In this document: positions 4,635 through 61,745 of the stretch, piece by piece | How positions within the stretch are numbered: the first letter of the stretch is position 1 | Layout of the letters: the number at the start of each line of letters is the position of its first letter | Source: Propioniciclava sp. MC1595 | GTDB lineage: Bacteria; Actinomycetota; Actinomycetes; Propionibacteriales; Propionibacteriaceae | Length of the DNA: 64,000 bases | Direction: 5' to 3' | Assembly (NCBI RefSeq): GCF_017569205.1 | Contig: NZ_CP071870.1 | Location: 372,001-436,000 of the forward strand | Program-made: the position numbers and the translations under genes | Notes under the pieces: generated by a model | Told to the model about the DNA's origin: nothing | The model's database searches: none | What the model saw: only the letters and a program-made list of their open reading frames with translations

Positions 4635-6716
4635 GTGCCCCGCCCCGTGCTCGGACCCTCGTCGCTCGCCGCCGCCCCCCGGCCCGGCCGCGCCGGCCTG
4701 CGCGGCTGGCTCGCGCCAGGCCTGCTGCACGCGCTGGTGCTGGACGCCGCGGGCCCGGGCCTGCGCCACTACGAGCGGGCCCAGGAGCGCCCCGACCAAG
4801 GGTGGGCGCGGCTCGACCTCGTCAGCCCGGACGCCGTGGGCCCCGGTGCGCTCGTGGTCGCCTCCGGGGTGCTGCACGCCCTCGTGCCGGAGGACGGCGG
4901 GATCGCCCACCACGTGAAGGCGGCCCTGCCCCGCGTCGCCGCGTCGGGTGAGCACACCCTCGACCCCAACACCTGGGGACGCCGGGGCGAGCCCCTGCCC
5001 GGCAGCACCGTCACCGCCACCCGGGACGCCCGGGGCGTGCTCGCCGCCGTCGGGGACGACGACGGCACGACCCTGTGGCGGTTCGAGGGTGGCTGGCGCC
5101 GCACGGAGCACCTCCCCGGCGCCCGGGACGTGCTCGTCGCGCCCGGCGCCGTCGTCGCCGACCTCGGGGGCGAGCTGAGCCTGCGCCTGCGGGGCGCCTG
5201 GCGCCGGCTGGGGCTGGGGGCCGGGACGGCGTCCGGGTCGCTCGTCGCGGACGCGGGGGGCTGGCTCCTGGCCGTCCCGCGCGGGGATGTGCTCGAGACC
5301 TGGCGCATCGGCCGAGACGGCGCCGTCACCCCCCACGCCACCCTCACGTGGGGTGCGGGGACCATCGACGGGGTCGCGCTGGCACCGGCCGGGCGCGGGC
5401 CCATCCACGCGCTGACCGACGAGGCGGGCTCGGTGCTCCAGCACCGGCGCCACGCGGCGGGCGGCGCGTGGATGCGCGTGACCTGCCTGCGCCTGCACGA
5501 CACCAGCCCGTTCACGGTCGAGGAGCGCGAGTCGACCAAGCTCGCGCAGGTGTCGGGGGAGACCGACACCCAGCCGGTCCGCGAGGGCGGGCGACGGCTG
5601 ACGCTGAGCCGCTCGACGACGAGGTCGGGGGTGCTGGGGACCGACCTCGGCGTCCGGGTCGAGCACCTGGGCGACGACCTGATGGTCTTCGGGGACACCC
5701 ACTGGCACCGCCGCCCGTGGCTGACCACGCGCGACGCGATCGCGCGCATCGACCCCACGGGGCCGATCGACGGGCTGCCGGGGTTCACGTTCCACGGGGC
5801 GCCGCTGCGCGTGCGCGGGTGGGGCGTGACGATGCGGGAGTACGACGTGCCGCTGGACGCCTTCTCCGTCGGCGACGACCTGTACGGCTTCTTCACGTCG
5901 AACCACTTCCGGCGTGGGCAGGTCATGGGCCGCTCGGTCCTGGCCGTGCACCGCGGGCCGGTGCGCGTGGACCCGCGCTCGCGGCGTCCGGTCACGTTCA
6001 CCGGCGCGCGCACGTTCTCGGAGCGGTACTTCATCAACGTGTCGGTGCAGCGCCTGCCCGGATCCGCGCTCGGCCTGCCCCGGGAGGGCGAGGTGCTCGC
6101 CGTCTGGGGCTCGGGGTCCTACCGGGCCGGCGACCTGCGGCTGGCGGTGCTCGACCCCGAGTCCGCCGCCGGTGGCCGACCGCGCGTGCGGTACTGGGCC
6201 GGGCTCTCGGCGTCCGGACAACCGCGCTGGAGCGAGCGCGAGGCCGACGCCCGCCCGCTGCTGCACCCGTCGGCGCTGGGGGAGGTGTCGGTGCGGTGGG
6301 TGCCCGAGGCCGGCCGGTTCCTGTTCCTGGGCTGCTCCGGCCCCGAGGACCCGATCGGACTGTCGGTCTGGTTGCGCACCGCCGAGGCGCCGTGGGGCCC
6401 GTGGTCGCCGCGGCACCGGCTCCTGGACTGGGCGGCGCGCGGCATGTGGTTCGACGACCCGTACTCGCGGTTCATCAAGGCACTCGGAGACGGCACGGAC
6501 CCGGTCGGCGACCGCATCTTCCGGGTGCAGGCCGACATGACGGGCGCGGCCTACGCGCCGTTCTTCTTCGACGCGCGTGCCGACGGCGGCGAGCTCGTGC
6601 TGCGGTACACGTTGTCGACCTGGAACCCCTACCAGGTGGTGCTCATGGCCCACCGGCTCGGCAGCGACGTGCTGGGGCCGGTGGCTCAGGGCAGCGCGTC
6701 GGTCGACCTCGGGTAG
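4635..6716 (+). CDS. DUF4185 domain-containing protein
   Basis: 693 residues. The C-terminal half (about 340-690) has the look of DUF4185: a five-bladed-propeller-type series with FGDTHW, DLYGFFTSNHF, TFSERYFINVSVQRLP, EVLAVWGSG and NPYQVVLMAHRL. The N-terminal half also shows repeated Trp/Gly-rich strands, so the whole chain may be propeller-like. No signal peptide is evident. The function is unknown; the resemblance is to glycan-active or glycan-binding propellers. The GTG start is supported by a TAGGCT box 6 nt upstream. Its 3' end overlaps the convergent ribokinase gene by 31 bp. Confidence 0.75.
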   Translation: MPRPVLGPSSLAAAPRPGRAGLRGWLAPGLLHALVLDAAGPGLRHYERAQERPDQGWARLDLVSPDAVGPGALVVASGVLHALVPEDGGIAHHVKAALPRVAASGEHTLDPNTWGRRGEPLPGSTVTATRDARGVLAAVGDDDGTTLWRFEGGWRRTEHLPGARDVLVAPGAVVADLGGELSLRLRGAWRRLGLGAGTASGSLVADAGGWLLAVPRGDVLETWRIGRDGAVTPHATLTWGAGTIDGVALAPAGRGPIHALTDEAGSVLQHRRHAAGGAWMRVTCLRLHDTSPFTVEERESTKLAQVSGETDTQPVREGGRRLTLSRSTTRSGVLGTDLGVRVEHLGDDLMVFGDTHWHRRPWLTTRDAIARIDPTGPIDGLPGFTFHGAPLRVRGWGVTMREYDVPLDAFSVGDDLYGFFTSNHFRRGQVMGRSVLAVHRGPVRVDPRSRRPVTFTGARTFSERYFINVSVQRLPGSALGLPREGEVLAVWGSGSYRAGDLRLAVLDPESAAGGRPRVRYWAGLSASGQPRWSEREADARPLLHPSALGEVSVRWVPEAGRFLFLGCSGPEDPIGLSVWLRTAEAPWGPWSPRHRLLDWAARGMWFDDPYSRFIKALGDGTDPVGDRIFRVQADMTGAAYAPFFFDARADGGELVLRYTLSTWNPYQVVLMAHRLGSDVLGPVAQGSASVDLG

Positions 6717-8100: not shown

Positions 8101-9564
8101 CTACTGCTGGCGCGCGGCCAGGGCCTGCTGGGTGTCGCGGGAGGCCTCGTGCAGCGAGCCGTACAGCGCGTACAGCTCCTCGTAGGGGCCGGGTCGGGGC
8201 TCGAGGGTGTCGGCGGCCGGGTTCCAGGCGTCGATGTCGAGGGTGTCGTCGAGCAGGCGGGCCGCAAGGAAGGCGTCCCCGAACGACGCGCCCACCGACT
8301 TCTCGCGCAGCACCTGCGGGCGCCCGATCACGTCGGTCATGATCTGCGGCCACAGGCTGCCCGTGGTGCCGCCGCCGACCGCGACGACGCGCTCGATCGG
8401 GACGCCCGCGTCGGCGTACGTCTCCACGTTGTGCCGGACGCCGAACGCCGTCGCCTCCAGCGCCGCCCGGTAGAGGTCGCCGCGGGTGTGGGCGAGGGTG
8501 AGCCCGACGATGGTGCCGCGGGCGTCGGGGTCCTGGATGGGCGTCCGCTCGCCGGCGAAGTACGGCAGCATGAGCAGGCCGTTGGCCCCGGGGGTGGACG
8601 CCGCGGCCTCGGCCGAGAGCGTGGCGTAGTCGGCGCCGGTGAGGTCGCGCAACCACGTGGTGATCGCGCCCGAGGTGGCCATGCCGCCGGCGAGGTTGTA
8701 CTGGCCGGCGACGAGGCCGGTGGTGCCCCACATGTGGGGGTGCCGCACGCGCTGGGTCGTGTTGCCGACCAGGAACATCGTGGTGCCGTACATGAGCATC
8801 AGGTCGCCCGGCTTCGTGGCGCCGACCGAGAGCCCCTCGGCCCACGCATCGATGGTGCCCACGGTCACCGGGATGCCCTCGGGCAGGCCCGTCTCGGACG
8901 CCGCCCGTGCGGTGATGCGGCCGGCCTCGTCGCCGGCCCAGGCCAGGCGCGGGAGGTCGATGCCGGGGGCGACCGCCTCGGCCCACGGGGTGTGCCACTC
9001 CTGGGTCGCGGCGTCGTAGAGCGGCGTGGACTGCGAGGCGGACTGCCGGTCGAGCACGTACTTGCCGGTGAGGTGCGCCACGAGCAGCGAGGCGGGCATG
9101 TGGAACCGGGTGGACCGCTCGTAGGCCTCGGGGGCGTGTCGCGCGAACCAGCGGAACTTGGGGCCGGCCGCCTGCGTGGTCAGGTAGGTGTCGGTGCGCT
9201 CGAAGATGGCCTCGGCGCCGAGTTCGTCGTCGAGCTCGTCGATCTCGGCCGTCGCGCGCATGTCGACGCCGTAGAGGGCGCTCTTCGTCGTCGGGGTGTT
9301 GTCGGCGTCGGTGAGCTGCACGCAGGGGCCCATGCCCGAGACACCGACCGCGGCGACGGTGGCGCCCGTGCTGCGGAGGAGCTCGCCGGTGATCGAGACG
9401 AACTCGTCCCACCAGACGGCGCCGTCCATCTCGAACTGGCCCGGGCGCGGGTTGTCGACCCGGTGCTGGCGGCTGGTCTGGGCGATCACCGTGCCCGCGT
9501 GGTCGACCAGCACGCCCTTCGTGCTCGACGTGCCGACATCAACCCCGAGGTAGACCCCGTCCAT
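8101..9564 (-). CDS. FGGY-family carbohydrate kinase (xylulokinase-like)
   Basis: 487 residues with the FGGY two-domain ATPase pattern. The phosphate-1 motif YLGVDVGTSSTKGVLVD is at the N-terminus. WWDEF and GVSGMGPCVQL follow. The C-terminal adenosine motif AVGGGTTGSLWPQIMTDV precedes the conserved SVGASFGDAFLAA. Such kinases phosphorylate xylulose, ribulose, gluconate or related sugars; xylulose is most likely on length and motifs but not certain. The ATG at 9564 has AGGAAGGA upstream and is preferred over the longer ORF. Stumps of a LacI regulator and a sialidase-like enzyme just upstream suggest a larger sugar locus that was lost. Confidence 0.85.
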   Translation of the reverse strand: MDGVYLGVDVGTSSTKGVLVDHAGTVIAQTSRQHRVDNPRPGQFEMDGAVWWDEFVSITGELLRSTGATVAAVGVSGMGPCVQLTDADNTPTTKSALYGVDMRATAEIDELDDELGAEAIFERTDTYLTTQAAGPKFRWFARHAPEAYERSTRFHMPASLLVAHLTGKYVLDRQSASQSTPLYDAATQEWHTPWAEAVAPGIDLPRLAWAGDEAGRITARAASETGLPEGIPVTVGTIDAWAEGLSVGATKPGDLMLMYGTTMFLVGNTTQRVRHPHMWGTTGLVAGQYNLAGGMATSGAITTWLRDLTGADYATLSAEAAASTPGANGLLMLPYFAGERTPIQDPDARGTIVGLTLAHTRGDLYRAALEATAFGVRHNVETYADAGVPIERVVAVGGGTTGSLWPQIMTDVIGRPQVLREKSVGASFGDAFLAARLLDDTLDIDAWNPAADTLEPRPGPYEELYALYGSLHEASRDTQQALAARQQ

Positions 9565-9601
9565 GGCCGATCCTTCCTGAGCCGTCCTCCGGCCCACCTT
9601 G

Positions 9602-50357: not shown

Positions 50358-51455
50358 TCAGGCAGACGAGGCCGGCAGGTCGGGGAACGCAGCCACCACG
50401 CCTGGGTGGGTGAGGCGTCCGGCATGGGTGTTGAGGCCCTCGGCCAGGGCCGGGTCGGCGTCCGCGGCCTTCGCCCAGCCCTGCTCGGCGATGCGACGCA
50501 CGTACGGCAACGTCGAGTTCGTGAGCGCCCACGTGGAGGTGTTCGGCACCGCGCCGGGCATGTTCGCCACGCAGTAGAACACCGAGTTGTGCACCGTGTA
50601 GGTGGGGTCGTCGTGGGTGGTCGGGTGGGAGTCCTCGAAGCAACCGCCCTGGTCGACCGCCACGTCGACGAGCACCGAACCCGGCTTCATCTGCGACACC
50701 ATCTCGTTGGTGACCAGCTTCGGCGTGCGGGCACCCGGGACGAGCACCGTGCCGATCACCAGGTCGGCGGCCAGCACCTGCTCGCGCACGGTGAGGGTCG
50801 AGGACAACAGGGTGTCCACGGCGTCGTCGAACTTCCACATGATCTGGCGCAGCTTGTCGAGGTCGGTGTCGAGCACCGTGACGTCGGCGCCCATGCCGAG
50901 CGCGACGCTCGCCGCGTTCTGGCCCGCGATGCCGCCACCGAGGATGACGACCTTCGCGCTGGGGACCCCAGCGACGCCGCCCATCAGGACCCCGCGTCCG
51001 CCCTGTGCCTTGAGCAGCGCGTGCGCACCCATCTGGGGAGCCAGGCACCCCGCCACCTCGGACATCGGGTAGAGCAGCGGCAGCTGGCCATTGGGCAGGC
51101 GGACCGTCTCGTAGGCCACGCCCGTCGTGCCCGCGTCGAGGAGCGCCTCGGTGAGCGGGCGGTCGGGCGCCAGGTGCAGGTAGGTGAACAGGACCTGCTC
51201 GTCGGTGAGGAAGTGGAACTCCTCGGGCGTCGGCTCCTTGACCTTGAGGACCAGCTCACCCGACCACGCGCCGTCGGTGTCGACGATCTGCGCGCCGACC
51301 TTGGCGTAGTCGTCGTCGGTGATGGACGACCCCAGGCCGGCGTCCTTCTCGATGAGGACCTCGTGGCCCGCCTCGACCAGGTCGAGCACGCCCACGGGCG
51401 TGATCGCGACGCGGTACTCGCGGACCTTCGTCTCCTTCGGGATCGAGACCCTCAT
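50358..51455 (-). CDS. ald: Alanine dehydrogenase
   Basis: 365 residues, the normal length. It starts MRVSIPKETKVREYRVAITP. Substrate-site Lys is in LVLKVKEP and the catalytic His in FTYLHLAPDR. The Rossmann NAD site is VVILGGGIAGQNAASVALGM. It interconverts alanine and pyruvate plus ammonium with NAD and links carbon and nitrogen metabolism. The ATG at 51455 lies 4 nt after the stop of a DUF5302 gene, so the two are co-transcribed. Confidence 0.96.
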   Translation of the reverse strand: MRVSIPKETKVREYRVAITPVGVLDLVEAGHEVLIEKDAGLGSSITDDDYAKVGAQIVDTDGAWSGELVLKVKEPTPEEFHFLTDEQVLFTYLHLAPDRPLTEALLDAGTTGVAYETVRLPNGQLPLLYPMSEVAGCLAPQMGAHALLKAQGGRGVLMGGVAGVPSAKVVILGGGIAGQNAASVALGMGADVTVLDTDLDKLRQIMWKFDDAVDTLLSSTLTVREQVLAADLVIGTVLVPGARTPKLVTNEMVSQMKPGSVLVDVAVDQGGCFEDSHPTTHDDPTYTVHNSVFYCVANMPGAVPNTSTWALTNSTLPYVRRIAEQGWAKAADADPALAEGLNTHAGRLTHPGVVAAFPDLPASSA

Positions 51456-51459
51456 CGGT

Positions 51460-51645
51460 CTAACCCCCGGCCTTGCGCCGGAACGTGCGCTTGCCCCCCT
51501 GCTGACCGTGGGGCCCACCGGCCGCCTTCGCACCGCCTTGCGCGCCCGCCGCACTGCCGTGCTGGGCGTTCTTCTTGGCCTCCAGGGCAGCCTTCATCTG
51601 CTCCTTCGGGTCGACGACCTTGTCACCGTCCTTTGCTTCACTCAT
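51460..51645 (-). CDS. DUF5302 small protein
   Basis: 61 residues. MSEAKDGDKVVDPKEQMKAA opens a charged N-terminal helix. An Ala/Gly/Gln-rich stretch follows, then the conserved basic end GGKRTFRRKAGG typical of DUF5302 in actinobacteria. The function is unknown. It is directly upstream of ald. CAGAGT lies 6 nt before its ATG, suggesting a leaderless mRNA that also carries ald. Confidence 0.75.
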   Translation of the reverse strand: MSEAKDGDKVVDPKEQMKAALEAKKNAQHGSAAGAQGGAKAAGGPHGQQGGKRTFRRKAGG

Positions 51646-51739
51646 GCGCCCACTCTGGCACATGGGGGCGACACGCGGGGGGTCAGGGGCCGGGGAGGCG
51701 GTCGTGGAAGTTCGTCGGGCGGTTGGGCAGGATGGGTCC

Positions 51740-52204
51740 ATGGCTCTCCACAGTGCAGGTCTCCTGCCGTTTACGTTGGTGGATGGCCAGTTGCGGGTTT
51801 TCATCGTGCACATGGGCGGCCCCTTCTGGGGCCATCGCGACGACGGCGGCTGGTCACTGGCGAAGGGCATGTACACGCCCGGCGAGGAGACGCCCGAGGA
51901 CGCGGCCCGGCGCGAGTTCTCCGAAGAGGTGGGCTGCGAGCCGCCCGAGGGTGAGCTGATCGACCTGGGTGAGGTCCGGTTGTCGTCGGGGAAGCGGGTG
52001 CGCGGATTCGCCGTCGAGGCGTCCGAGGACCTGTGCTTCGTCGAGAGCAACACCTTCGAGGTGGAGTGGCCGCGGCGGTCCGGTCGGTTCCGCACCTACC
52101 CCGAGGTCGATCGCGCGGACTGGTTCGACGTCGAGGTCGCCCGCACCAAGGTGACCCTCGGCCAGATCCCCCTGTTGGACGCCCTGGCCCGCATGGTGGG
52201 TTAG
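51740..52204 (+). CDS. NUDIX hydrolase
   Basis: 154 residues. The Nudix box is GMYTPGEETPEDAARREFSE followed by EVG (G-x5-E-x7-REUXEEXGU). The pattern FWGHRDDGGWSLAKG before it is typical of small diadenosine or nucleotide pyrophosphohydrolases. The substrate is not predictable. CAGGAT lies 6 nt before the ATG. It overlaps the convergent DUF6054 gene by 4 bp. Confidence 0.9.
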   Translation: MALHSAGLLPFTLVDGQLRVFIVHMGGPFWGHRDDGGWSLAKGMYTPGEETPEDAARREFSEEVGCEPPEGELIDLGEVRLSSGKRVRGFAVEASEDLCFVESNTFEVEWPRRSGRFRTYPEVDRADWFDVEVARTKVTLGQIPLLDALARMVG

Positions 52205-52542
52205 CTGCCCTCCGCGTAGGCATCGATGACCTGAGCGGCCTTGTCGAGCCAGGTCATCTCCCCGATCGGGAGCACCTTGAAAAAGCTTGCCTCGGTGCCC
52301 CCGCTGGTGATGACGCTGGCGTGGAGCGTGCCCCGGTGCTCGGCCAGCGAGAGCGCCATGCTGACGCGGTTGCCGCCGAACATCGAGTAGCGCTCGTACA
52401 CCCGGAACGCCGTGCGCACCTCGCCGAGGGTGAGGTCCGTGCCGTCCTCCGCGGTGGCGGAGATGCTGCCCATGATGTTGTCGTGGAAGTAGGGCAGGAA
52501 GCTGCTGATCGACCCGGGGAATGACCGCTCGTACTTCGCCAT
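52201..52542 (-). CDS. DUF6054 family protein
   Basis: 113 residues. MAKYERSFPGSISSFLPYFH, then MGSISATAEDG and the central GNRVSMALSLAEHRGTLHAS match a small conserved family of unknown function (DUF6054). It ends with an amphipathic helix (WLDKAAQVIDAYAEG). No membrane segment. CACACT lies 6 nt before the ATG. A five-unit 22-bp repeat array lies in the upstream intergenic region. Confidence 0.7.
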   Translation of the reverse strand: MAKYERSFPGSISSFLPYFHDNIMGSISATAEDGTDLTLGEVRTAFRVYERYSMFGGNRVSMALSLAEHRGTLHASVITSGGTEASFFKVLPIGEMTWLDKAAQVIDAYAEGS

Positions 52543-52573
52543 GGGGCCAGTGTGCTCGCGTGGGCGACCCTGT

Positions 52574-52683
52574 GCAGGCTGTCGGCGGACGGAGGTCGGG
52601 CTCTCGGCGCAGGGAATGCAGGCTGTCGGCGCACAAAACCCAAGCCCTCGGCGGCTAGAACTGAAGCCCTGGTCGTGCCTCCC
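52574..52683. repeat. 22-bp tandem repeat array, five units
   Basis: Units start at 52574, 52596, 52618, 52640 and 52662. Each has a 14-bp core of the type CCAAGCCCTCGGCG or GCAGGCTGTCGGCG plus a variable 8-bp tail, often ending AAAC or GAAC. The period is exactly 22. The same unit occurs three times at 60142-60207. The array lies between the divergent DUF6054 and helicase genes. Confidence 0.75.
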
Positions 52684-52795
52684 GCTCCGCCGCGGCGCAA
52701 CACGCCCAACACGCCCTCTCCGGTGTTTGACCCGCTCGCTCGGGGGAGGGCTAGGGTCGGGGTCCTATGTCTTCCCCGAGCACCCCCGCGCGCGC

Positions 52796-54556
52796 ATGAG
52801 CCAGTCGGCGTTCGACCGGCTCGGTCCGGCGTTCCCGCAGCGCGCTCCGTGGGGAACGGCGACCAAGCTGCGCGCCTGGCAGCAGGAAGCACTCGACCTC
52901 TACCTCAGCTCCGCGCCCCGCGACTTCCTCGCCGTCGCCACCCCCGGCGCCGGCAAGACGACGTTCGCGCTTCGGGTGGCGTCCGAGCTGTTGCACGCCC
53001 GGGTGGTGCGCCGCGTGATCGTGGTCGCCCCGACCGAGCACCTCAAGGTGCAGTGGGCGGACGCCGCCGCGAAGGTTGGCATCCAGCTCGACCCGGGGCT
53101 GGGCGGGCGCAAGCGCGGGCGCTCGCGGCAGTACGACGGGGTCGCGGTCACCTACGCCGGCGTCGCGGCGGCGATGCTCAGCTACCAGACCATGACGGCG
53201 AACTTCGACACGCTGGTGATCCTCGACGAGGTCCACCACGCCGGCGACGCCCTGGCCTGGGGCGACGCGGTGCGCGACTCGTTCCAGTACGCGACGCGAC
53301 GGCTGATGCTGACGGGTACGCCCTTCCGCTCGGACGAGAACCCCATCCCCTTCGTCACCTACGTCGAGGGGCACGGCGGCGAGAAGGTCTCCCGCGCCGA
53401 CTACACCTACGGCTACGCCGAGGCGCTGCGCGACCACGTCGTGCGCCCGGTGGTGTTCATGAACTACGGCGGGCCCATGCGGTGGCGCACCAAGTCGGGC
53501 GACACGGTCGAGGCCAACCTGGGTGAGCTGCTCACCAAGGACGTCTCGGCCCAGGCCTGGCGCACCGCCCTCGACCCCAAGGGGGAGTGGATCTCGGCGG
53601 TCCTGCGGGCCGCGGACAAGCGGCTCAGCGAGGTGCGACGACACGTCCCGGACGCCGGCGGCCTCGTCATCGCCACCAACCAGACCAACGCCCGGGCGTA
53701 CGCGCGCGTGCTGGAGTCGATCACCGGGACCAAGCCCACGGTGGTGCTGTCGGACGACGCCGGGGCGTCGGGTCGGATCGAGGCCTTCTCGGCGTCCGAC
53801 GAGCGGTGGATGGTCGCCGTGCGGATGGTGTCCGAGGGCGTCGACGTGCCGCGGCTGGCGGTCGGGGTGTACGCGACCGCGACGTCCACGCCCCTGTTCT
53901 TCGCGCAGGCCGTCGGGCGCTTCGTGCGGACCCGCCGCCGCGGGGAGGTGGCCACCGTGTTCCTGCCGACCGTGCCGATCGTCCTCGCGCACGCGTTCTC
54001 CCTGGAGCTGCAACGCGACCACGTGCTGGGGCGACGGAGGGCGTCTGAGGAGATGGACGTGTGGGCCGAGGCCGAGGCCCTGCTGGAGGCCGCGAACCGA
54101 CGCGAGGCGGCGTCCGACGACCTGATGGGGGCGTTCGAGGCGCTCGATTCGGCGGCGACCTTCGACCACGTGCTGTTCGACAGCCAGCAGTTCGGGATGC
54201 ACGCCGTGCCCACGTCGGACGACGAGGCCGACTACCTCGGCCTGCCCGGGCTGCTCGAACCCGACCAGATAACCCACCTGCTACGCGAACGGCAGCGGCG
54301 GCAGGTGCGGAGGCACGAACGGTCCGAGCGGCGGGAGCGCGTGACGCCCGAGGTGTCGCTGCACCGCGCCCTCGCGGCCCGCCGCAAGGAGCTGAACACA
54401 CTGGTGTCGCAGTACGCGCGCGTGAAGGGGGTACCGCACAGCCACGTGCACGCTGAACTGCGCCGCCAGTGCGGTGGGCCGGCACTGGCGGCGGCGACCA
54501 CGGACCAGGTCGAGGCGCGGATCACGATGATCCGGGGTTGGCAGGCGCGCGTGTGA
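52796..54556 (+). CDS. DEAD/DEAH-type superfamily 2 helicase
   Basis: 586 residues. Walker A is ATPGAGKTTFALRVA, motif II LVILDEVHHAG (DEVH), motif III LMLTGTPFRSDE, and the second lobe has VSEGVDVPRLAVGVY and the motif VI AQAVGRFVRTRRRGE. A basic C-terminal region (RERQRRQVRRHERSERRERV) could bind nucleic acid. Proteins of this class unwind or remodel DNA/RNA; a specific role is unknown. The ATG at 52796 is the first in-frame ATG near the conserved start; the frame is open further upstream through the repeat array, which is probably not coding. Confidence 0.88.
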   Translation: MSQSAFDRLGPAFPQRAPWGTATKLRAWQQEALDLYLSSAPRDFLAVATPGAGKTTFALRVASELLHARVVRRVIVVAPTEHLKVQWADAAAKVGIQLDPGLGGRKRGRSRQYDGVAVTYAGVAAAMLSYQTMTANFDTLVILDEVHHAGDALAWGDAVRDSFQYATRRLMLTGTPFRSDENPIPFVTYVEGHGGEKVSRADYTYGYAEALRDHVVRPVVFMNYGGPMRWRTKSGDTVEANLGELLTKDVSAQAWRTALDPKGEWISAVLRAADKRLSEVRRHVPDAGGLVIATNQTNARAYARVLESITGTKPTVVLSDDAGASGRIEAFSASDERWMVAVRMVSEGVDVPRLAVGVYATATSTPLFFAQAVGRFVRTRRRGEVATVFLPTVPIVLAHAFSLELQRDHVLGRRRASEEMDVWAEAEALLEAANRREAASDDLMGAFEALDSAATFDHVLFDSQQFGMHAVPTSDDEADYLGLPGLLEPDQITHLLRERQRRQVRRHERSERRERVTPEVSLHRALAARRKELNTLVSQYARVKGVPHSHVHAELRRQCGGPALAAATTDQVEARITMIRGWQARV

Positions 54557-54631
54557 TGCCCGACCGGGCCGAAGACCCTCGGGGTTCGACGTCCCCCTGA
54601 CGAGGAGGGAGTTTCGGCGCCATCATGGGGT

Positions 54632-55055
54632 ATGCAGATTCACGACGACGTGCACGAGTTCGATGTTCCCTGCGCGGCACAGCCCCGCATTCGAAGCCTT
54701 CACGCTGCGCACCGCGGAGTGGTGGTCCGCTGAGGCGGTCGGCAGCCCCGACACCTTCAGCCACGTGTTCTTCGAGCCGGTGGTGGGCGGTCGTGTCCAG
54801 GAGATCGCCTCCGACGGCACGCAGACCTTCCGCGGCGAGGTCAAGGAGTGGAAGCCCGGCCGGCGCCTGGTGTTCACCTTCAGCAAGGCCGAGGACGCCG
54901 TCCATCCGTCCACGATCTCGGTGGACTTCATCCACACCGGGGACGACGCGGCCACCGTCCGGATCCACCACCTGACCGGTGACGAGGACCGGTTCAACAA
55001 CTGGGACGGCTTCGTCAAGCCCTACGCCGCGCTGTTGGGCGTCTACACCCACTGA
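54632..55055 (+). pseudogene. SRPBCC/AHSA1-like protein with N-terminal frameshift
   Basis: From 54690 on, AFEAFTLRTAEWWSAEAVGS, FFEPVVGGRVQEIASDG, EVKEWKPGRRLVFTFSKAED and HHLTGDEDRFNNWDGFVKPY are a clear AHSA1-type SRPBCC domain ending at 55055. The natural N-terminus (ATG 54632, MQIHDDVHEFDVPCAAQP) lies in a different frame and joins after an indel near 54680-54690. Alternatively translation begins at the ATG 54663 (MFPARHSPAFEAF), which would lack the first strand. The ligand is unknown. Confidence 0.7.
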
Positions 55056-55087
55056 CCCGGCACAGCTGGACCGAGGAGCGCCGCCCG

Positions 55088-56386
55088 TCAGGCCTCTTCG
55101 GGGTCGAGCTGGGCCGGCTCGGGGACGCCGCGGAGCTCGCGCCAGCTGGGCAGGCGCCAGTCGTTGCGCTGGAGCGCGAAGAACATGCCCACCATGAACG
55201 CCAGGGCGGTGGCGATGGCGCCGATGAGGACGGTCCAGCGGGCGCCCCAGGCGTCGCCGATCCAGCCGATCATCGGGGCGCCGAGGGGCGTGCCGCCGAG
55301 GAAGATCATCATGTAGAGCGCCATCACGCGGCCGCGCATGACCGGCTCGGTGGTGAGCTGCACCGAGGCGTTCGCGGTGGTCATGACGGTCAGGGCGGTG
55401 AGCCCGACCGGGATGAGGAGGATCGCGAACATCTCGTAGGTCGGGGCGAGCGCGAGAGCGAAGGTGGCGATCGCGAAGCCCATGAGGGCGCCGAGCATGG
55501 TCGACAGGCGTGGGCGCGGCCGGCGGGCTGCCATGAGCGCGGCGGTGAGTGAACCGACGGCCATGATCGAGCCGAGGATGCCGTACGCGTCGGCGCCCTT
55601 GCCGTACACCTCGGTGGCCATGAGGGCGTTGGTGATCTGGAAGTTCATCCCGAAGGTGCCGAGCATGAAGACGATGAACATGACCAGCTGGATGTCGGGG
55701 CGTCCGGCGACGTAGCGGATGCCCTCGCGCACCGAGCCACGGCCGCGGCGGATGGGGGCCGGGGTGAGCTGGGAGGGATCCATGGCGAGGAGCGCGAGGA
55801 TCACCGGGATGAACGTGAACGCGTTGATCAGGAGGCTGGGGCCGACGCCTGCAACGGCGATCATCAGACCGGCGACGGCCGGGCCCACGAGCCGGGCGCC
55901 GTTGAAGCTGGTCGAGTTGAGGCCGACCGCGTTCGGGAGGAGCTCGGGCGGCACCATCTCGGAGGCGAACGCCTGGCGGGTTGGGTTGTCGACCGCGGTC
56001 ACGACGCCCTGGAGGAAGGCCAGCACGTAGACGTGCCACAACTCGGTGACGTTGAACACGACGAGCAGGGCGAGGGTGGCGGCGTTGAGGGCGAGGAGCA
56101 CCTGGGTCCAGACGAGGATGATGCGCTTGGGGAACCGGTCGGCGACCGCGCCGCCCCAGGCGCCGAACAGCACCATCGGGAGGAACTGCAGGCCGGTGAC
56201 GTAGCCGACCGCCGAGGCGGAGTGGTCGGTCAGGATCGTCAGCACGAGCCAGGTCTGCGCGATGCGCGCCATCCAGGTGCCGATGTTCGAGATCAGGCCG
56301 CCCCAGAAGAACAGCCTGTAGTTGCGCAGCCTCAGGCTGGCGAACATCGGGGTGCGCGCGGGCGCGATCGTGGGGGTCTGGGTCAC
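55088..56386 (-). CDS. MFS transporter, DHA3/EntS-like
   Basis: 432 residues with twelve hydrophobic segments. The conserved loop WGGAVADRFPKRIILVWTQV between helices 2 and 3 and NPTRQAFASEMVPPELLPNA are characteristic of the MFS_3 (EntS/MefA-like) branch that exports siderophores or drugs. Its ATG overlaps the stop of an upstream marR gene by 4 bp, so the pair is a self-regulated efflux operon. The substrate is unknown. Confidence 0.9.
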   Translation of the reverse strand: MTQTPTIAPARTPMFASLRLRNYRLFFWGGLISNIGTWMARIAQTWLVLTILTDHSASAVGYVTGLQFLPMVLFGAWGGAVADRFPKRIILVWTQVLLALNAATLALLVVFNVTELWHVYVLAFLQGVVTAVDNPTRQAFASEMVPPELLPNAVGLNSTSFNGARLVGPAVAGLMIAVAGVGPSLLINAFTFIPVILALLAMDPSQLTPAPIRRGRGSVREGIRYVAGRPDIQLVMFIVFMLGTFGMNFQITNALMATEVYGKGADAYGILGSIMAVGSLTAALMAARRPRPRLSTMLGALMGFAIATFALALAPTYEMFAILLIPVGLTALTVMTTANASVQLTTEPVMRGRVMALYMMIFLGGTPLGAPMIGWIGDAWGARWTVLIGAIATALAFMVGMFFALQRNDWRLPSWRELRGVPEPAQLDPEEA

Positions 56387-56811
56387 GCGTGGATCACCTT
56401 CTGGAGGATGTCGGTCGCCTCACGGAGGACCTTGAGTTCGTCGGGGGAGAGCCCCTGGAGGCGACGGACCATCCAGTCGTCGCGGCTCGCGCGGGTGCGC
56501 TGCACCATCTCGGCGCCAGCCTCGGTGAGGGAGAGCAGGTGGCGTCGGCCGTCGTCGGGGTCGAGGGTGCGCGCGACGAACCCGGCCTCGACGAGGCTGT
56601 TCACCGTGCGGGTCATGCTCGGGGCGCTCACCTCCTCGATGCGGGCCAGTTCGCCGGCGGTGCTCGCGAGGCCCATCGACAACTTGGCGAGCGCGCTGAA
56701 GTGGTGCGGCGGGATCTCGTGGCAGTTGTCGAACCGCACACGGCGGCTGACGTGCTGGCACGCGATGCGCACGTCGCTGGCGAGGCTGAGGAGGGGGTCA
56801 CGGTCGGGCAC
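56383..56811 (-). CDS. MarR family transcriptional regulator
   Basis: 142 residues with the winged helix: STAGELARIEEVSAPSMTRT (recognition helix), VEAGFVARTLDPDDGRRHLL (wing with the DxRR motif) and a C-terminal dimerisation helix. It should repress itself and the co-transcribed MFS gene and respond to the exported compound. The GTG start lies only 8 nt after a TAGGCT -10 box, so the mRNA is nearly leaderless. Confidence 0.92.
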   Translation of the reverse strand: MPDRDPLLSLASDVRIACQHVSRRVRFDNCHEIPPHHFSALAKLSMGLASTAGELARIEEVSAPSMTRTVNSLVEAGFVARTLDPDDGRRHLLSLTEAGAEMVQRTRASRDDWMVRRLQGLSPDELKVLREATDILQKVIHA

Positions 56812-56817
56812 GATTGC

Positions 56818-56847
56818 TTAGCCTAGCTCATTAGCTGAGGTAATCAA
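56818..56847 (-). promoter_or_regulatory. marR promoter overlapped by an imperfect palindrome
   Basis: Minus strand: -35 TTGATT (56842-56847), 16-bp spacer, -10 TAGGCT (56820-56825). A 26-bp imperfect palindrome (56818-56843, 9 of 13 positions symmetric, with two TAGCT cores) covers the spacer and -10. This is a good MarR operator candidate. Confidence 0.5.
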
Positions 56848-56853
56848 ATGGAG

Positions 56854-56947
56854 AGTGGTGGTTTCTCTCCAGGGGATGGAGGAGGCGCGGCTGGGTTGAG
56901 CGTGACTGGGTGTCCGGGCCGCCATCCTCTGGAGAGAAACCACCACT
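56854..56947. repeat. Long inverted repeat upstream of the DUF559-like gene
   Basis: The 26-nt arms (56854-56879, beginning AGTGGTGGTTTCTCTCCAG, and its reverse complement 56922-56947) have one mismatch and enclose 42 nt. It lies between the divergent marR promoter and the next plus-strand gene. It has no transposase and no CRISPR-like spacing, and could form a large hairpin in RNA or cruciform DNA. Confidence 0.75.
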
Positions 56948-56988
56948 CCCGTCGGAGCACCTGACAGGACCCGCCTAAACCAAGGGGC

Positions 56989-57921
56989 ATGGAGCACGCG
57001 TGGCGTCGGGCCCTCGAGGCGCGAGACGGGTTGATCGTCCGGCGGGAGCACCCATCGCTGGGTTCGGCGTTCGATCGCGCCCTGCGACAGGGGCACATCG
57101 TGCCGGTGCTGGCCGGCATCTACCGGGACGCCGCTGCCGAACTGGACCTCGCGACCCGGATCCGGGCCGCCCTCATCATGGATCTCAACGCGGTGGTCGT
57201 GGGGGAGGCGGCCGCGACGCTGGGGTGGTGGCCCGACCGGGCCGCGACCACGGTGGACCTCGCGACCCGGGGTCGCCCTGCAGACGGGGACGGCATCCGC
57301 TGGTGCCGGCGTCAGATCCCGCTCGACCTCACCGTCGACCGCGGCGACGTGCGGTTCACCGATGCGCCCCTCACCGTGCTCGACCTCCTGCCCACGCTCG
57401 GGGGCACGGTCATCGACGAGGCGCTTCGCCTGAGGGCGGTCACGCTCGGCCAACTCGAGACGGTGTTCGCGGGGCTCCCTGTCCGGCCCGGCGATGCTCT
57501 GCGCCGGGCCCTGCTCGACGACTCGCGGGACCAGCCCTGGTCCGAGGCCGAGCGGGAGTTCCAGCGCCAGAACCGTGACCTCGACCTGCCGCACGCCCAC
57601 CGCACGAACCACCCGGTCACCCTTCCCGACGGCACGGTCCGCTTCCTCGACTACGCACTGCCCGACCTCCTGCTCGCGTTCGAGGTCGACGGTTGGGAGA
57701 CCCATGGATCCAGGGAGGCCTTCCTCCGGGACCGGGACTCCGACGCCCAGCTGGCTGCCTTGGGCTGGCAGCGCATCCGGTTCGCCGCCACGACGATCTT
57801 CGACGACCCGGAAGGCGTGAAGGCGACGGTGCGCAGCATCGTGGCAGCCCGCGAGGGACTGTTCCGGGGGCTCCCGGCGGCGTCACGCCCACGCGCGCGC
57901 AGGCGGGGTGGGCGCGCGTAG
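56989..57921 (+). CDS. AbiEi-like/DUF559 (Vsr-fold) protein
   Basis: 310 residues. The N-terminal part (about 1-120) resembles the winged-helix AbiEi antitoxin-type domain: FDRALRQGHIVPVLAGIYRD. The C-terminal part has a DUF559/Vsr-like nuclease fold: RFLDYALPDLLLAFEVDGWE, then THGSREAFLRDRDSDAQLAA and GWQRIRFAATTIFDDP. Such single-gene fusions are widespread and multi-copy in actinobacteria; the role is unproven. AAGGGGC precedes the ATG. Confidence 0.78.
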   Translation: MEHAWRRALEARDGLIVRREHPSLGSAFDRALRQGHIVPVLAGIYRDAAAELDLATRIRAALIMDLNAVVVGEAAATLGWWPDRAATTVDLATRGRPADGDGIRWCRRQIPLDLTVDRGDVRFTDAPLTVLDLLPTLGGTVIDEALRLRAVTLGQLETVFAGLPVRPGDALRRALLDDSRDQPWSEAEREFQRQNRDLDLPHAHRTNHPVTLPDGTVRFLDYALPDLLLAFEVDGWETHGSREAFLRDRDSDAQLAALGWQRIRFAATTIFDDPEGVKATVRSIVAAREGLFRGLPAASRPRARRRGGRA

Positions 57922-57924
57922 GCT
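57919..57924 (+). promoter_or_regulatory. -10 box of the TIGR01777 gene
   Basis: TAGGCT overlapping the upstream stop codon, 6 nt before the ATG at 57931. Predicted leaderless start. Confidence 0.5.
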
Positions 57925-57930
57925 GAGGGC

Positions 57931-59349
57931 ATGCCCGTCTTCGAGCGCACCAGCCGGTACCCGTATCCGCGATCGACGGTGTTCGCGTGGCACACCCGGC
58001 CGGGTGCGTTCGCCCGGCTCAGCCCTCCCGGGATGGTCACCGCTCTGAAGCTGCACACCGACGGGATCAACGTGGGGTCTGAGGCCGAGCTCCTCATCAG
58101 CCACCCGCTCGTCGCCGGACTGCTGCCCGACATCCCGCGCCCGGGCGCCCGCAAGGGTGCGCCGATCGGGGTGCGCTGGCTGGTGCGCCACGTCGAGCTG
58201 GTCCCCAACGAGAGGTTCGTCGACGAGCAGGTACGCGGCCCGTTCAAGTCCTGGCGCCACGAGCACCACTTCGCCGACGGCCCCGGCGGCTCGACGATCA
58301 TCACCGACCGCGTGATCTGGGAGCTCCCGGTCACCCTCCCCGGACGCCTCGACCAGGCCCTCGTCGAGATGCAGCTCGACGGACTCTTCGCGTTCCGCGA
58401 GCGCCAGCTCCGCGACGACCTCGACCTGCACACCCGCCTCGCGGCGAGCCCGCGCCGGGTCGTCGTCGCCGGGGCATCCGGTCTCATCGGCACCCAGCTC
58501 TGCGCGCTGCTCACCTCGGGCGGACACCACGTCACCCGGCTGGTGCGCACGTCGGCCAAGGGCAAGCCCGACGCCGCCCGCTGGGATCCCGCCGCCCACA
58601 AGCTCGACCCCCGCATCCTCGAGGGGGCCGACGCCGTCGTAAACCTGTCGGGCCACTCCATCGGCGGGCGGTTCACCCGCGGCCACAAGGGGAAGGTCCT
58701 CACGTCCCGCCTCGATGCGACCGCCACCCTCGCGGGCGCCGCCGCCGAGGCAAAGGTCCCGACCCTCGTCCAGGCCTCGGCGATCGGCTACTACGGCCCG
58801 CGGCGTCCGAACGAGCTGTTGACCGAGGACTCAGCCCCCGGCGACGGCTTCCTGGCCGCCACCGTCCGGGCCTGGGAGGCCGCCGCGCAGCCGGCCGCGG
58901 ATGCCGGCGTCCGGGTCGCACTGCTGCGCACCGGCATCGTGCTCAGCGAGGGCGGGGGAGCGCTCGCGCCCCAGGTGCCGCTGTTCTCGCTCGGCGTGGG
59001 CGGGCGCCTCGCCGCGCCCGACGCGTGGTTCAGCTGGGTCGGCCTCGACGACGTGGCGCGGGCGTACGTGCACACGATCCTGACCGACGTGGTCGAGGGG
59101 CCCACCAACCTGGTCGGGCCGCGCCCGGTCACGCACCAAGAGTTCGCCACCACCCTCGGCCGCGTGCTGCACCGGCCGGCGGTCGTGCCGACGCCGGCGA
59201 TCGGCCCCAAGCTCGTGCTCGGTGCCGAGGGCTACGACGAGATGATCGACACCGACCAGCGGGTGTCGGCGGCGAAGCTGGGCGAGTCCGGGTTCTGGTT
59301 CGCGCAGGGCACCCTGGCCGAGGCGCTGCGGCACGCGCTCATGCGCTGA
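57931..59349 (+). CDS. TIGR01777 family NAD-dependent epimerase fused to SRPBCC domain
   Basis: 472 residues. The N-terminal domain (1 to about 165) is SRPBCC-like (FERTSRYPYPRSTVFAWHTR, HHFADGPGGSTIITDRVIWE). The C-terminal SDR domain starts with RVVVAGASGLIGTQLCALLT and contains QASAIGYYGPRRPNELLTED and FSWVGLDDVARAYVHTI, the signature of TIGR01777/YfcH-type epimerases. The fusion is common in actinobacteria. The substrate is unknown. TAGGCT exactly 6 nt before the ATG fixes the start. Confidence 0.9.
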   Translation: MPVFERTSRYPYPRSTVFAWHTRPGAFARLSPPGMVTALKLHTDGINVGSEAELLISHPLVAGLLPDIPRPGARKGAPIGVRWLVRHVELVPNERFVDEQVRGPFKSWRHEHHFADGPGGSTIITDRVIWELPVTLPGRLDQALVEMQLDGLFAFRERQLRDDLDLHTRLAASPRRVVVAGASGLIGTQLCALLTSGGHHVTRLVRTSAKGKPDAARWDPAAHKLDPRILEGADAVVNLSGHSIGGRFTRGHKGKVLTSRLDATATLAGAAAEAKVPTLVQASAIGYYGPRRPNELLTEDSAPGDGFLAATVRAWEAAAQPAADAGVRVALLRTGIVLSEGGGALAPQVPLFSLGVGGRLAAPDAWFSWVGLDDVARAYVHTILTDVVEGPTNLVGPRPVTHQEFATTLGRVLHRPAVVPTPAIGPKLVLGAEGYDEMIDTDQRVSAAKLGESGFWFAQGTLAEALRHALMR

Positions 59350-59366
59350 CCGGACGCCGCGACGAG

Positions 59367-60134
59367 ATGGCCTCCAGCGCGTCGCCCGCCGTGGGTCGGG
59401 CCCTCGACATCCTGACCCACCTCGCCCGGCAGACCGGGGCGGTCGGGGCATCGGCGATCGCGCGCGACCTGGGCCTGCCCCGCTCGTCGACGTACCACCT
59501 GCTCGCCGTGCTGGAGGAGCGCGGCTTCGTGCTGAGGCTGCCCGAGTCGCGCGGCTGGGCGCTCGGTGCCTCGGCGTACGGGCTGACCAGCGCGTACACC
59601 CCGCACGAGGGGCTCGAGCGGCTGGCCCGGCCGGTGATGCGGGCGCTCGCGGCTGAGCAGGGCGTGACCGTGCACCTCGGGATCCTGCGTGGCCCGCTCA
59701 CCCTCTACCTGCTCAAGGAGTCGCCCGCCGGAGCCACCGACGAACCGTCGCTCGTCACCGCCGTGGGGGTGCTGCTGCCCGCCCACCTGACCGCGTCGGG
59801 GCGGGCGATCCTGGCCCAATTGCCCGAGGCGACCGTGCGGGCTCTGTACACGCGGCCGGGCGACTTCGTGTCGCGCACGGGGCGCGGGCCGCGCGGTCTG
59901 GGCGACCTGCTGGGCGAGCTCGGCCCCGAGCGGGCGCGTGGGTGGTCCGAAGAGGTCGAACTCGTCACGCCCGGCCTGCGCTCGGTCGGAGCCGCCGTGT
60001 TCGACCTGCACCGCCAGCCCGTCGCGGCGCTGAGCTGCACGTGGCGGGCACGGGTCCCGGCCCGGGACGCCGAGCCGATCGTGTCCGCCCTGCTGGCCGG
60101 GGCGTCCGAGGTGTCGCGCCGGCTGGGTGGGTGA
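59367..60134 (+). CDS. IclR family regulator, probably of histidine use
   Basis: 255 residues. The N-terminal winged helix is VGRALDILTHLARQTGAVGA followed by SAIARDLGLPRSSTYHLLAV. The C-terminal effector domain contains GVTVHLGILRGPLTLYLLKE and the VELVTPGLRSVGAAVFDLH region. It lies 17 bp after the TIGR01777 gene and next to hutH, so control of the hut genes is likely; two palindromes lie between hutH and hutU as candidate sites. The effector would be urocanate or histidine, by analogy. Confidence 0.88.
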   Translation: MASSASPAVGRALDILTHLARQTGAVGASAIARDLGLPRSSTYHLLAVLEERGFVLRLPESRGWALGASAYGLTSAYTPHEGLERLARPVMRALAAEQGVTVHLGILRGPLTLYLLKESPAGATDEPSLVTAVGVLLPAHLTASGRAILAQLPEATVRALYTRPGDFVSRTGRGPRGLGDLLGELGPERARGWSEEVELVTPGLRSVGAAVFDLHRQPVAALSCTWRARVPARDAEPIVSALLAGASEVSRRLGG

Positions 60135-60141
60135 GAAGCAA

Positions 60142-60207
60142 CCAAGCCCTGGCCGCGTGAAACCCAAGCCCTCGGCGCGGAAAACTCAAGCCCTCGGCGC
60201 GTCCCGC
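60142..60207. repeat. 22-bp tandem repeat array, three units
   Basis: Units start at 60142, 60164 and 60186: CCAAGCCCTGGCCGCGTGAA, then CCAAGCCCTCGGCGCGGAAA and TCAAGCCCTCGGCGCGTCCC, each completed by two more bases. Same unit and period as the array at 52574-52683. It spans the convergent ends of the iclR and hutH genes, and the third unit supplies the last seven hutH codons. Confidence 0.8.
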
Positions 60208-61745
60208 GGCGGTAGGGGGCCGGTGACGGACGCCGCGGCCTCGACGAGGGATCCTGCCGCGACCAGGCCCACCACGGACTCGATCTCCGGGGCCAGGAAC
60301 CGGTCGGTGCCGGGGCCGGGGACGTGTTCGCGAATGCGCGCCACGACGGCCGCCGTCGCGGGGGCCGAACCCAGCTCGCGCAGGTCGAGCGCGCGGGCCG
60401 CGGTCAAGGCCTCGCCGGCCAGTACCCGGGTAAGCCCGTCAAGCGAGCGGCGCAGCTTGCGGGCGGCGTGCCAGCCGAGGGAGACGTGGTCCTCCTGCAT
60501 GGCCGAGCTCGGGATCGAGTCGGCCGACGCGGGCACGGCCAGGCGCTTGAGCTCGGCGACCACCCCGGCCTGCATGTACTGCAGGATCATGTGCCCCGAG
60601 TCGACGCCCGGGTCGTCGGCCAGGAACGGTGGCAGCCCGTGGTTGCGCTTGGCGTCGAGGAAACGGTCGGTGCGGCGCTCCGACATCGAGGCCACGTCGG
60701 CGACCGCTATCGCGAGGAAGTCGAGCACGTAGGCGACCGGTGCGCCGTGGAAGTTGCCGTTGGACTCCACGCGCCCGTCCGGGGTGACGACCGGGTTGTC
60801 GATCACCGAGGCCAGCTCCCGCTGGGCGACCAGCATGGCGTGCACCAGGGTGTCCCGGGCGGCGCCGGTGACCTGGGGTGCGCAGCGCAGCGAGTAGGCG
60901 TCCTGGACGATCGGGCAGTCGGGATCGTCGCGGTGCCGCGCCACGATCGGTGACCCGTCCAGCACCGCGCGCATCGTCGCCGCCGACAGCCCCTGCCCGG
61001 GGTGGGGTCGCATGGCGTGCAGGTCCTCGGCGAAGACGCGGTCGGTGCCCATCAGCCCCTCGACGGACAGGGCGGCGATCACGTCGGTCGTCGCCAGCAG
61101 GACGCCGAGGTCGTGACACGCCAGCACCAGCTGGCCCAGCATGCCGTCGGTGCCGTTGATGAGCGCCAGTCCCTCCTTCTCGGCGAGCACCAGCGGTTCG
61201 ATCCCGACCTCGGCCAGCACCTCGGCAGCAGGACGACGCACGCCCGCGGCGTCCCGCACCTCGCCCTCGCCCATGGCGGCGAGCGCGCAGTGCGACAGCG
61301 GGGCGAGGTCGCCCGAGCAGCCGAGCGAGCCGTACTCGTGCACGACCGGGGTGATGCCCGCGTTGAGCAGGGCGGCGTAGGTCTCGACCACGACCGGCCG
61401 GACGCCCGTGCGCCCGCTCGCCAGCGTCGACAGCCGCAGCAGCATCATCGCCCGGACGACCTCGCGCTCGACCTCAACCCCTGACCCCGCCGCGTGCGAG
61501 CGGATCAGCGACACCTGCAGCTGGGCTCGCTTCTCGGGGGCGATGTGCTTGGTTGCCAGCGCCCCGAACCCGGTCGAGACGCCGTAGACCGGGCGGTCCG
61601 ACGCGGCGAGTTGCTCGATGTGGCGGCGGGTGGTGGCCACGGCGTCCAGAGCTTCGGGTGACACGCGAACGGGCGCGTCGTGCCTTGCCACGGCGACGAC
61701 GTCGTCGAAGCTGACCGGTCCGGTGCCGACGGTGACCTCATGCAT
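60186..61745 (-). CDS. hutH: Histidine ammonia-lyase
   Basis: 519 residues. The MIO cofactor site is GSLGCSGDLAPLSHCALAAM, so the tripeptide is Cys-Ser-Gly instead of the usual Ala-Ser-Gly. Other signatures are YGVSTGFGALAT, QDAYSLRCAPQVTGAARDTL and SNGNFHGAPVAYVLDFLAIA. It converts L-histidine to urocanate, the first step of the Hut pathway, with hutU and hutI encoded divergently. The last codons (PPRDAPRA) lie in the 22-bp repeat, so the C-terminus may have been altered by it. Confidence 0.96.
   Translation of the reverse strand: MHEVTVGTGPVSFDDVVAVARHDAPVRVSPEALDAVATTRRHIEQLAASDRPVYGVSTGFGALATKHIAPEKRAQLQVSLIRSHAAGSGVEVEREVVRAMMLLRLSTLASGRTGVRPVVVETYAALLNAGITPVVHEYGSLGCSGDLAPLSHCALAAMGEGEVRDAAGVRRPAAEVLAEVGIEPLVLAEKEGLALINGTDGMLGQLVLACHDLGVLLATTDVIAALSVEGLMGTDRVFAEDLHAMRPHPGQGLSAATMRAVLDGSPIVARHRDDPDCPIVQDAYSLRCAPQVTGAARDTLVHAMLVAQRELASVIDNPVVTPDGRVESNGNFHGAPVAYVLDFLAIAVADVASMSERRTDRFLDAKRNHGLPPFLADDPGVDSGHMILQYMQAGVVAELKRLAVPASADSIPSSAMQEDHVSLGWHAARKLRRSLDGLTRVLAGEALTAARALDLRELGSAPATAAVVARIREHVPGPGTDRFLAPEIESVVGLVAAGSLVEAAASVTGPLPPRDAPRA

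Follow-up and report, generated by a model that had tools for sequence, protein, structure and literature searches.

What is a row of near-identical 22-bp units between two divergent genes of a Propioniciclava chromosome, and does it belong to something larger? We addressed this question in a window of 64,000 bp (positions 372001 to 436000 of the 3,430,973-base single-contig genome, hereafter the own genome), whose internal numbering is used for the two arrays described in this and the following paragraph. The original prediction had placed five units with an exact 22-bp period at positions 52574 to 52683; the number and the period, the latter also returned by TRF, were borne out, while the true start lies one base further on, with units beginning at 52575, 52597, 52619, 52641, and 52663 (span 52575 to 52684). 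Each unit is composed of a 13-bp core and a 9-bp spacer, and two main types can be told apart: type A, with the core C[AG]GGCT[GC]TCGGCG and spacers often ending GGAAGG or GGAACA, and type B, with the core CAAGCCCTCGGCG and spacers often ending AAACY. On the plus strand, units 1 (52575 to 52596) and 3 (52619 to 52640) are of type A (CAGGCTGTCGGCG), unit 2 (52597 to 52618) is a type A variant (CGGGCTCTCGGCG), and unit 4 (52641 to 52662) has the type B core. The array extends past unit 5 by half a unit, up to 52697, and this last portion (52663 to 52697), made of the diverged unit 5 (GAAGCCCTGGTCG) and the half unit CTCCGCCGCGGCG (52685 to 52697), carries the end form GTCGTGCCTCCCGCTYCGCCGCGG, which was found at several other arrays and closes some of them while keeping the 22-bp register. 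The consensus originally proposed, CCAAGCCCTCGGCG, turned out to fit unit 4 and a second array nearby better than most of array 1, where units 1 to 3 are of type A.

The neighbors of array 1 are indeed divergent, as predicted: a DUF6054 gene on the minus strand to the left (52201 to 52542) and a DEAD/ResIII helicase gene on the plus strand to the right (52796 to 54556, the start codon, at about 52796, being uncertain). Array 2 (60143 to 60199, plus strand), consisting of two full type B units and a final core, lies between convergent genes, namely, an IclR-type regulator gene on the plus strand (59367 to 60134), ending 8 nt ahead of the array, and an aromatic amino acid lyase gene (PF00221) on the minus strand (60186 to 61745). 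The TGA stop of the latter (60186 to 60188, minus strand) is located inside array 2, which also encodes the C-terminal PRA of the lyase. As a separate observation, the DUF6054 gene, which has the NUDIX gene on one side and the helicase gene on the other, is absent from the corresponding gap of two relatives, Propioniciclava sinopodophylli KCTC 33808 (G009) and the uncultured Propioniciclava MAG CALMPQ (G007).

Core matches with at most one mismatch numbered 32 in the window versus a mean of 6.33 and a maximum of 12 in 100 shuffles. An empty whole-genome search for the core had been named in advance as the result that would speak against the original prediction; the search of the 3.43-Mb genome returned 77 matches to paired cores at fixed spacing versus 1 with the reversed pattern, and 46 versus 0 for a second spaced pattern, whose list overlaps the first. 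BLASTN with array 1 as the query found 45 matches in its own genome, including itself. The repeats are a family beyond chance. We called 66 arrays comprising 174 units, with 2 to 5 units per array (40 stretches were retrieved); at least 2 of the 66 (at genome positions 2483669 and 2846078) are probably chance matches in coding sequence, and the loci L096, L107, and L132 were removed as chance ahead of the folding, placement, and unit-difference counts. Spacers are more similar inside arrays than across arrays, suggesting that units were duplicated locally. CRISPR was considered as well and rejected, since the 9-bp spacers recur within arrays and CRISPR spacers are unique.

The arrays are scattered over the chromosome. 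A stretch from 1.515 to 2.35 Mb, with limits set after viewing the data, contains 1 of 64 arrays (the two probable chance calls excluded) versus 15.6 expected; for 39 merged clusters, the largest empty gap gave a P value of 0.045 and the Rayleigh test one of about 0.002. This stretch faces the apparent origin, the first open reading frames of the contig reading by eye as dnaA, dnaN, and recF, and the depletion of arrays near the terminus is a hint only.

We then determined where the arrays lie relative to genes, which were called with our own codon-score caller, so that neither the gene starts nor the calls of genes that overlap arrays are certain. In the own genome, 54 of the 66 arrays are intergenic, 12 lie inside called genes, and none is at a contig edge; the corresponding numbers for 98 arrays of three relatives picked for carrying arrays (P. 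sinopodophylli, MAG CALMPQ, and MAG S3R_St_70) are 88, 3, and 7. Convergent, co-directional, and divergent gaps hold 21, 25, and 8 of the own intergenic arrays and 33, 45, and 10 of the relatives', and the divergent gap of array 1 is a minority setting (8 of 54). A core lies within 3 nt of a stop codon or overlaps it in 21 of 46 stop-flanked gaps of the own genome (null mean, 8.5; maximum, 15; 2,000 runs) and in 44 of 78 of the relatives' (null mean, 16.5; maximum, 26), the null being random placement with no promoter avoidance in the model. The arrays are mainly a feature of gene 3′ ends, a point beyond the original prediction, as are the several unit types and the fast turnover between species described below.

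The contact with stop codons has a preferred register. Among close cases (an offset of 12 nt or less, overlaps counted), a TGA followed by three bases and then the core (offset 3) accounts for 12 of 27 left-side cases in the relatives and 1 of 10 in the own genome. On the right side, the opposite gene has its stop 0 to 2 nt past the core in 22 of 46 cases in the relatives and 12 of 27 in the own genome. Five proteins of the own genome end PRA or SRA with the stop codon (TGA) supplied by the repeat, whose core, read in frame, is CGCCGAGGGCTTGA or differs from it by one base. The lyase gene at array 2 is among the five, and its P. sinopodophylli ortholog, which has no array, ends differently. 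In co-directional gaps the orientation of the arrays is unbiased (14 versus 11 in the own genome and 25 versus 20 in the relatives). Arrays in convergent gaps point their core end at the nearer stop in 19 of 21 cases in the own genome and 22 of 33 in the relatives, together 41 of 54.

The spacing between cores is fixed. Between neighboring same-strand cores of the retrieved loci in three genomes, a step of 22 bp occurred 265 times, 21 bp once, 24 bp twice, and 20 or 23 bp never. Since the loci had been retrieved with patterns fixing the 22-bp spacing, which arrays of other spacing would escape, a fairer count is that of the step following the first 22-bp step: this was again 22 bp in 124 cases, with 12 scattered larger or smaller values and none of 20, 21, 23, or 24 bp. 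The spacing is kept while the spacers vary, adjacent units (181 pairs) differing at 329 of 1,629 spacer positions versus 147 of 2,353 core positions. Neighboring cores in inverted orientation are regularly spaced as well, with gaps peaking near 5, 16, 27, and 38 bp, i.e., in steps of 11 bp; for 37 such gaps of 0 to 62 bp the best period was 11.0, and 3 of 20,000 random sets did as well over periods of 8 to 23.5. One known motif invited comparison here, the HAIR operator of HspR, with the consensus CTTGAGT-N7-ACTCAAG; the type B inverted pairs resemble its half-site, but the core gaps cluster at the values given above and a gap of 13 bp was seen in only 1 of 37 pairs, and we rejected this assignment.

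A 3′-end location, together with the orientation of the core end toward the nearer stop in most convergent gaps, could also be expected of an RNA-level element such as a transcription terminator or a 3′-UTR stabilizer. Inverted pairs would suit such a role, as 24 of them fold strongly (z, −2.5 to −13.8), at site 629658 the own and P. sinopodophylli copies are hairpins with different arms, each self-complementary by eye, and some array-free relatives have short hairpins, again by eye, at array sites instead. The direct arrays behave otherwise: their mean RNA-fold z scores on the two strands were −0.15 and −0.06 (33 arrays) and 0.26 and −0.11 (40 arrays), showing no folding excess over shuffles on either strand, and the two orientations are about equally used in co-directional gaps. 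Three terminator-like sites were found within 52400 to 60400 of the window, none of them at array 1 or array 2, and neither array has there the hairpin followed by a U tract of an intrinsic terminator. The constant 22 bp despite spacer variation, the 11-bp inverted steps, and the lack of fold excess in direct arrays speak more for a DNA array in helical phase than for an RNA terminator. We consider the RNA-level explanation unlikely for the family, although the strong folding of the inverted pairs leaves room for an RNA role of those pairs in particular.

A phased array bound by protein, to which we give about an even chance, is the most likely explanation, and such an array may serve as a boundary at gene ends. 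The original prediction had reasoned that 22 bp is about two helical turns and would put the sites on one face of the DNA, and this geometry is supported by the spacing, the 11-bp inverted steps, the absence of fold excess in direct arrays, and the unbiased orientation in co-directional gaps; on the whole, the original interpretation is partly supported. The polarity seen in convergent gaps is something that a phased array does not explain by itself. The closest known geometry is that of plasmid iterons, those of R6K being 22 bp long, with which the Propioniciclava arrays share direct repeats in two-turn phase; the difference is that the latter occupy dozens of chromosomal sites, not one origin.

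Mechanistically, the 13-bp cores with their 9-bp spacers would be half-sites lined up in a row at a constant 22 bp, so that two helical turns separate them and every core is on the same DNA face, and a putative sequence-specific DNA-binding protein may fill the row cooperatively, as initiator proteins do plasmid iterons. A filled array could then serve as a gene 3′-end boundary, either as an obstacle to read-through between neighboring, often convergent genes or as a topological or nucleoid anchor. Arrays would grow by local unit duplication and switch type between species, giving each species its own spelling.

Turnover between species was determined by comparing the sites of three retrieved regions with orthologous gaps. 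The gap ahead of the helicase gene holds 5 units in the own genome, 3 in MAG CALMPQ, two opposed arrays (6 and 4 units) in P. sinopodophylli, and none in another member of the genus, G006. At site 634183 there are 2 type B units in the own genome, 3 type A units in MAG CALMPQ, 5 units in P. sinopodophylli, and one degenerate core in G006, and at site 634905 the first three genomes carry 3, 3, and 5 units, respectively, and G006 and G004 lack an array. Both MAG CALMPQ and P. sinopodophylli have no array at site 432143, and the former has none at site 853070. Orthologous gaps differ in the presence, copy number, and type of arrays, turnover is fast between species, and the loss of arrays at such gaps indicates that single arrays are dispensable.

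Such behavior could be that of a mobile repeat, selfish or neutral: a short nonautonomous element put at or beside stop codons by some enzyme and then grown by unit duplication, with intergenic gaps as the places of least harm. The preferred register in which array ends meet stop codons (offset 3 on the left in the relatives, 0 to 2 on the right), the use of the repeat's TGA as a stop by the five genes, the presence or absence and type swaps at orthologous gaps, and the likeness of spacers within arrays, less so between them, all agree with it. Neither the constant 22 bp amid varying spacers nor an obvious mobilizer is accounted for, however: the Y1 (RAYT) transposase domain PF01797 was found in 0 of 13 genus genomes (5 of 14 in the control rings), no target-site duplication was noticed by eye in the few gaps inspected, viral contigs contained 0 exact type A/B pairs, and BLASTN of phages with one P. 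sinopodophylli array as the query gave no match. The same query against plasmids returned only a weak Halorussus record, taken as chance, and a plasmid search with window positions 50358 to 54556 matched through gene homology among the best 20 of 92 matches. We regard a mobile repeat as possible though improbable.

Among dispersed bacterial repeats, the REPs are the best known; they are hairpins and are linked to a known family of transposases. The Propioniciclava arrays resemble REP/BIME elements in being dispersed, between or downstream of genes, with neighbors in opposite orientation and content varying among relatives. Most REPs are found downstream of coding regions, and their GTAG termini often provide stop codons, according to the accessible part of PMC3733652, just as the arrays can supply a stop codon; in E. 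coli, translation can be reduced by REPs that are no more than 15 nt away from a stop codon (PMC12306157, in the part available). In contrast to REPs, the unit is not palindromic (one core of another genome, described below, nearly is), the arrays are mostly direct at 22 bp, and no GTAG/CGTC tag was seen by eye in the unit consensus on either strand. Despite the likeness in place and turnover, the arrays do not qualify as REPs, the 13 genus genomes having no Y1/RAYT match. Another actinobacterial element, MIRU, which appears mobile, inserts at start codons, and carries a coupled open reading frame (PMC12548453, as far as its text was available), shares with the arrays the position at gene boundaries, the type of host, and the apparent mobility, but the arrays lie on the stop side, in 22-bp units, and are too short for an open reading frame. 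In our best reading, the arrays form a family akin to REP/BIME elements, with sites that are spaced as in iterons and would be read by a putative protein whose specificity drifts between species. A literature search, which reached few subscription papers, found no description of such repeats, and the accessible parts of PMC3733652, PMC12306157, PMC12548453, PMC9426551, and PMC5217627 describe no 22-bp phased family of this kind.

We asked how far the family extends. Exact paired cores were found in 57 stretches among 84,980 species genomes (the own genome not being among them), 32 of them in P. sinopodophylli KCTC 33808, 21 in MAG CALMPQ, 1 in the Propionibacteriaceae MAG S3R_St_70, and 3 as single matches in unrelated genomes, which were taken as chance. 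With up to 3 mismatches in the type A/B pattern, 77 genomes, including the own, gave 96 matches in the latter, 155 in P. sinopodophylli, 80 in MAG CALMPQ, 8 in G006, 5 in G012, and 0 to 3 in the rest. Pairs of the shorter motif STCGGCG at a distance of 22 bp numbered 49, 254, and 63 in the first three genomes, 36 in G006, 27 in G011, 7 to 12 in seven other members of the genus, and 3 in G012, versus 0 to 3 for reversed-pattern controls within the genus. The arrays of the Propioniciclava genomes G006 and G011 are spelled CCGGTCCTCGGCG and GAAGTCCTCGGCG, respectively, reach 12 units, and lie within 3 nt of a stop or overlap it in 8 of 15 and 6 of 10 of the arrays in the retrieved loci.

Across 245 genomes of the order, 7 exceeded 45 STCGGCG pairs: the own genome, P. 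sinopodophylli, and five of a single other family, presumably the Nocardioidaceae (G052, 50 matches; G101, 63; G115, 112; G177, 61; G232, 116). Units are spelled CGCCGAGTCGGCGTGAGTTGNN in G052, whose core CGCCGAgTCGGCG is nearly palindromic and whose arrays start 0 or 1 nt past the stop at loci L178 and L177 and farther elsewhere, STCGGCGGTCAGGGAGTGACCT in G101, and GAGTCGGCGTGAACCCGGTGCC in G115, where one array has 30 units. For G006, G011, and these five genomes, the spacing counts are not independent, the loci having been selected on a 22-bp spacing. The arrays of G006, G011, G052, G101, G115, and the own genome have the 22-bp period and TCGGCG in common, with the rest spelled differently; both shared features were built into the search pattern, so that the sharing may reflect common descent, convergence, or search selection. 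The recurrence of the period with a different sequence in another family is a further point that a mobile repeat leaves unexplained.

Words that differ between species, are enriched between genes, and recur as inverted pairs where genes end bring to mind DNA uptake signals (USS/DUS) like those of Haemophilus. The arrays are far fewer and set in a fixed tandem phase, a rigid 22-bp arrangement for which we know of no counterpart. USS form terminator stems in Haemophilus influenzae and number about 1,300 copies versus the 174 units in 66 called arrays found here (PMC5217627, in the part available). An uptake-type signal is a very improbable explanation.

In these arrays, the conserved quantity is the spacing, while the sequence drifts between species and the ends are set on stop codons. 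A speculative extension, which we hold only tentatively, is an order-wide gene-boundary system in which a putative DNA-binding protein of drifting specificity would coevolve with helix-phased gene-end arrays, the 22-bp phase and the TCGGCG kernel being kept and the rest rewritten in each species; such drifting spellings might be likened to those of centromeres or to uptake words. A protein reading the spacing, should there be one, would be a factor in the architecture of gene ends in actinobacteria, and the spellings of the different species provide a natural experiment, ready to hand, with which to find it. Otherwise, the arrays would be a stop-codon-associated repeat without a known mobilizer.

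Several minor observations were made along with these. The segment 626602 to 631131 of the own genome is 95 percent identical in DNA sequence to C40:97140-101695 of P. sinopodophylli; other long matches to that genome are 79 to 89 percent identical, and the segment was therefore probably exchanged recently between the species. Elsewhere, at least one array, that at 3157474 of the own genome, has a counterpart identical in every letter (L118:3322). Gaps of array-poor species contain tandem arrays of other periods, namely, a 20-bp array of about 16 copies in the sister species G005 (L138:9193-9521; unit, CGCCCGCGTTTGGGACGAGT), a 33-bp array in G008 (L143:3162-3393), and a 24-bp array in G003 (L146). 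An Rfam scan of window positions 52100 to 60400 gave no match at the arrays and one weak match to mir-2576 (56851 to 56951; E value, 0.91), far under the gathering score. At 56853 to 56948, within a divergent gap, the window has a 20-bp inverted repeat whose arms match perfectly and enclose a loop of 56 nt, and long inverted repeats of comparable length, with stems that are unrelated by eye, occur in other gaps of MAG CALMPQ (reverse complement of L136, about 9480 to 9590) and P. sinopodophylli (reverse complement of L137, about 5859 to 5956).
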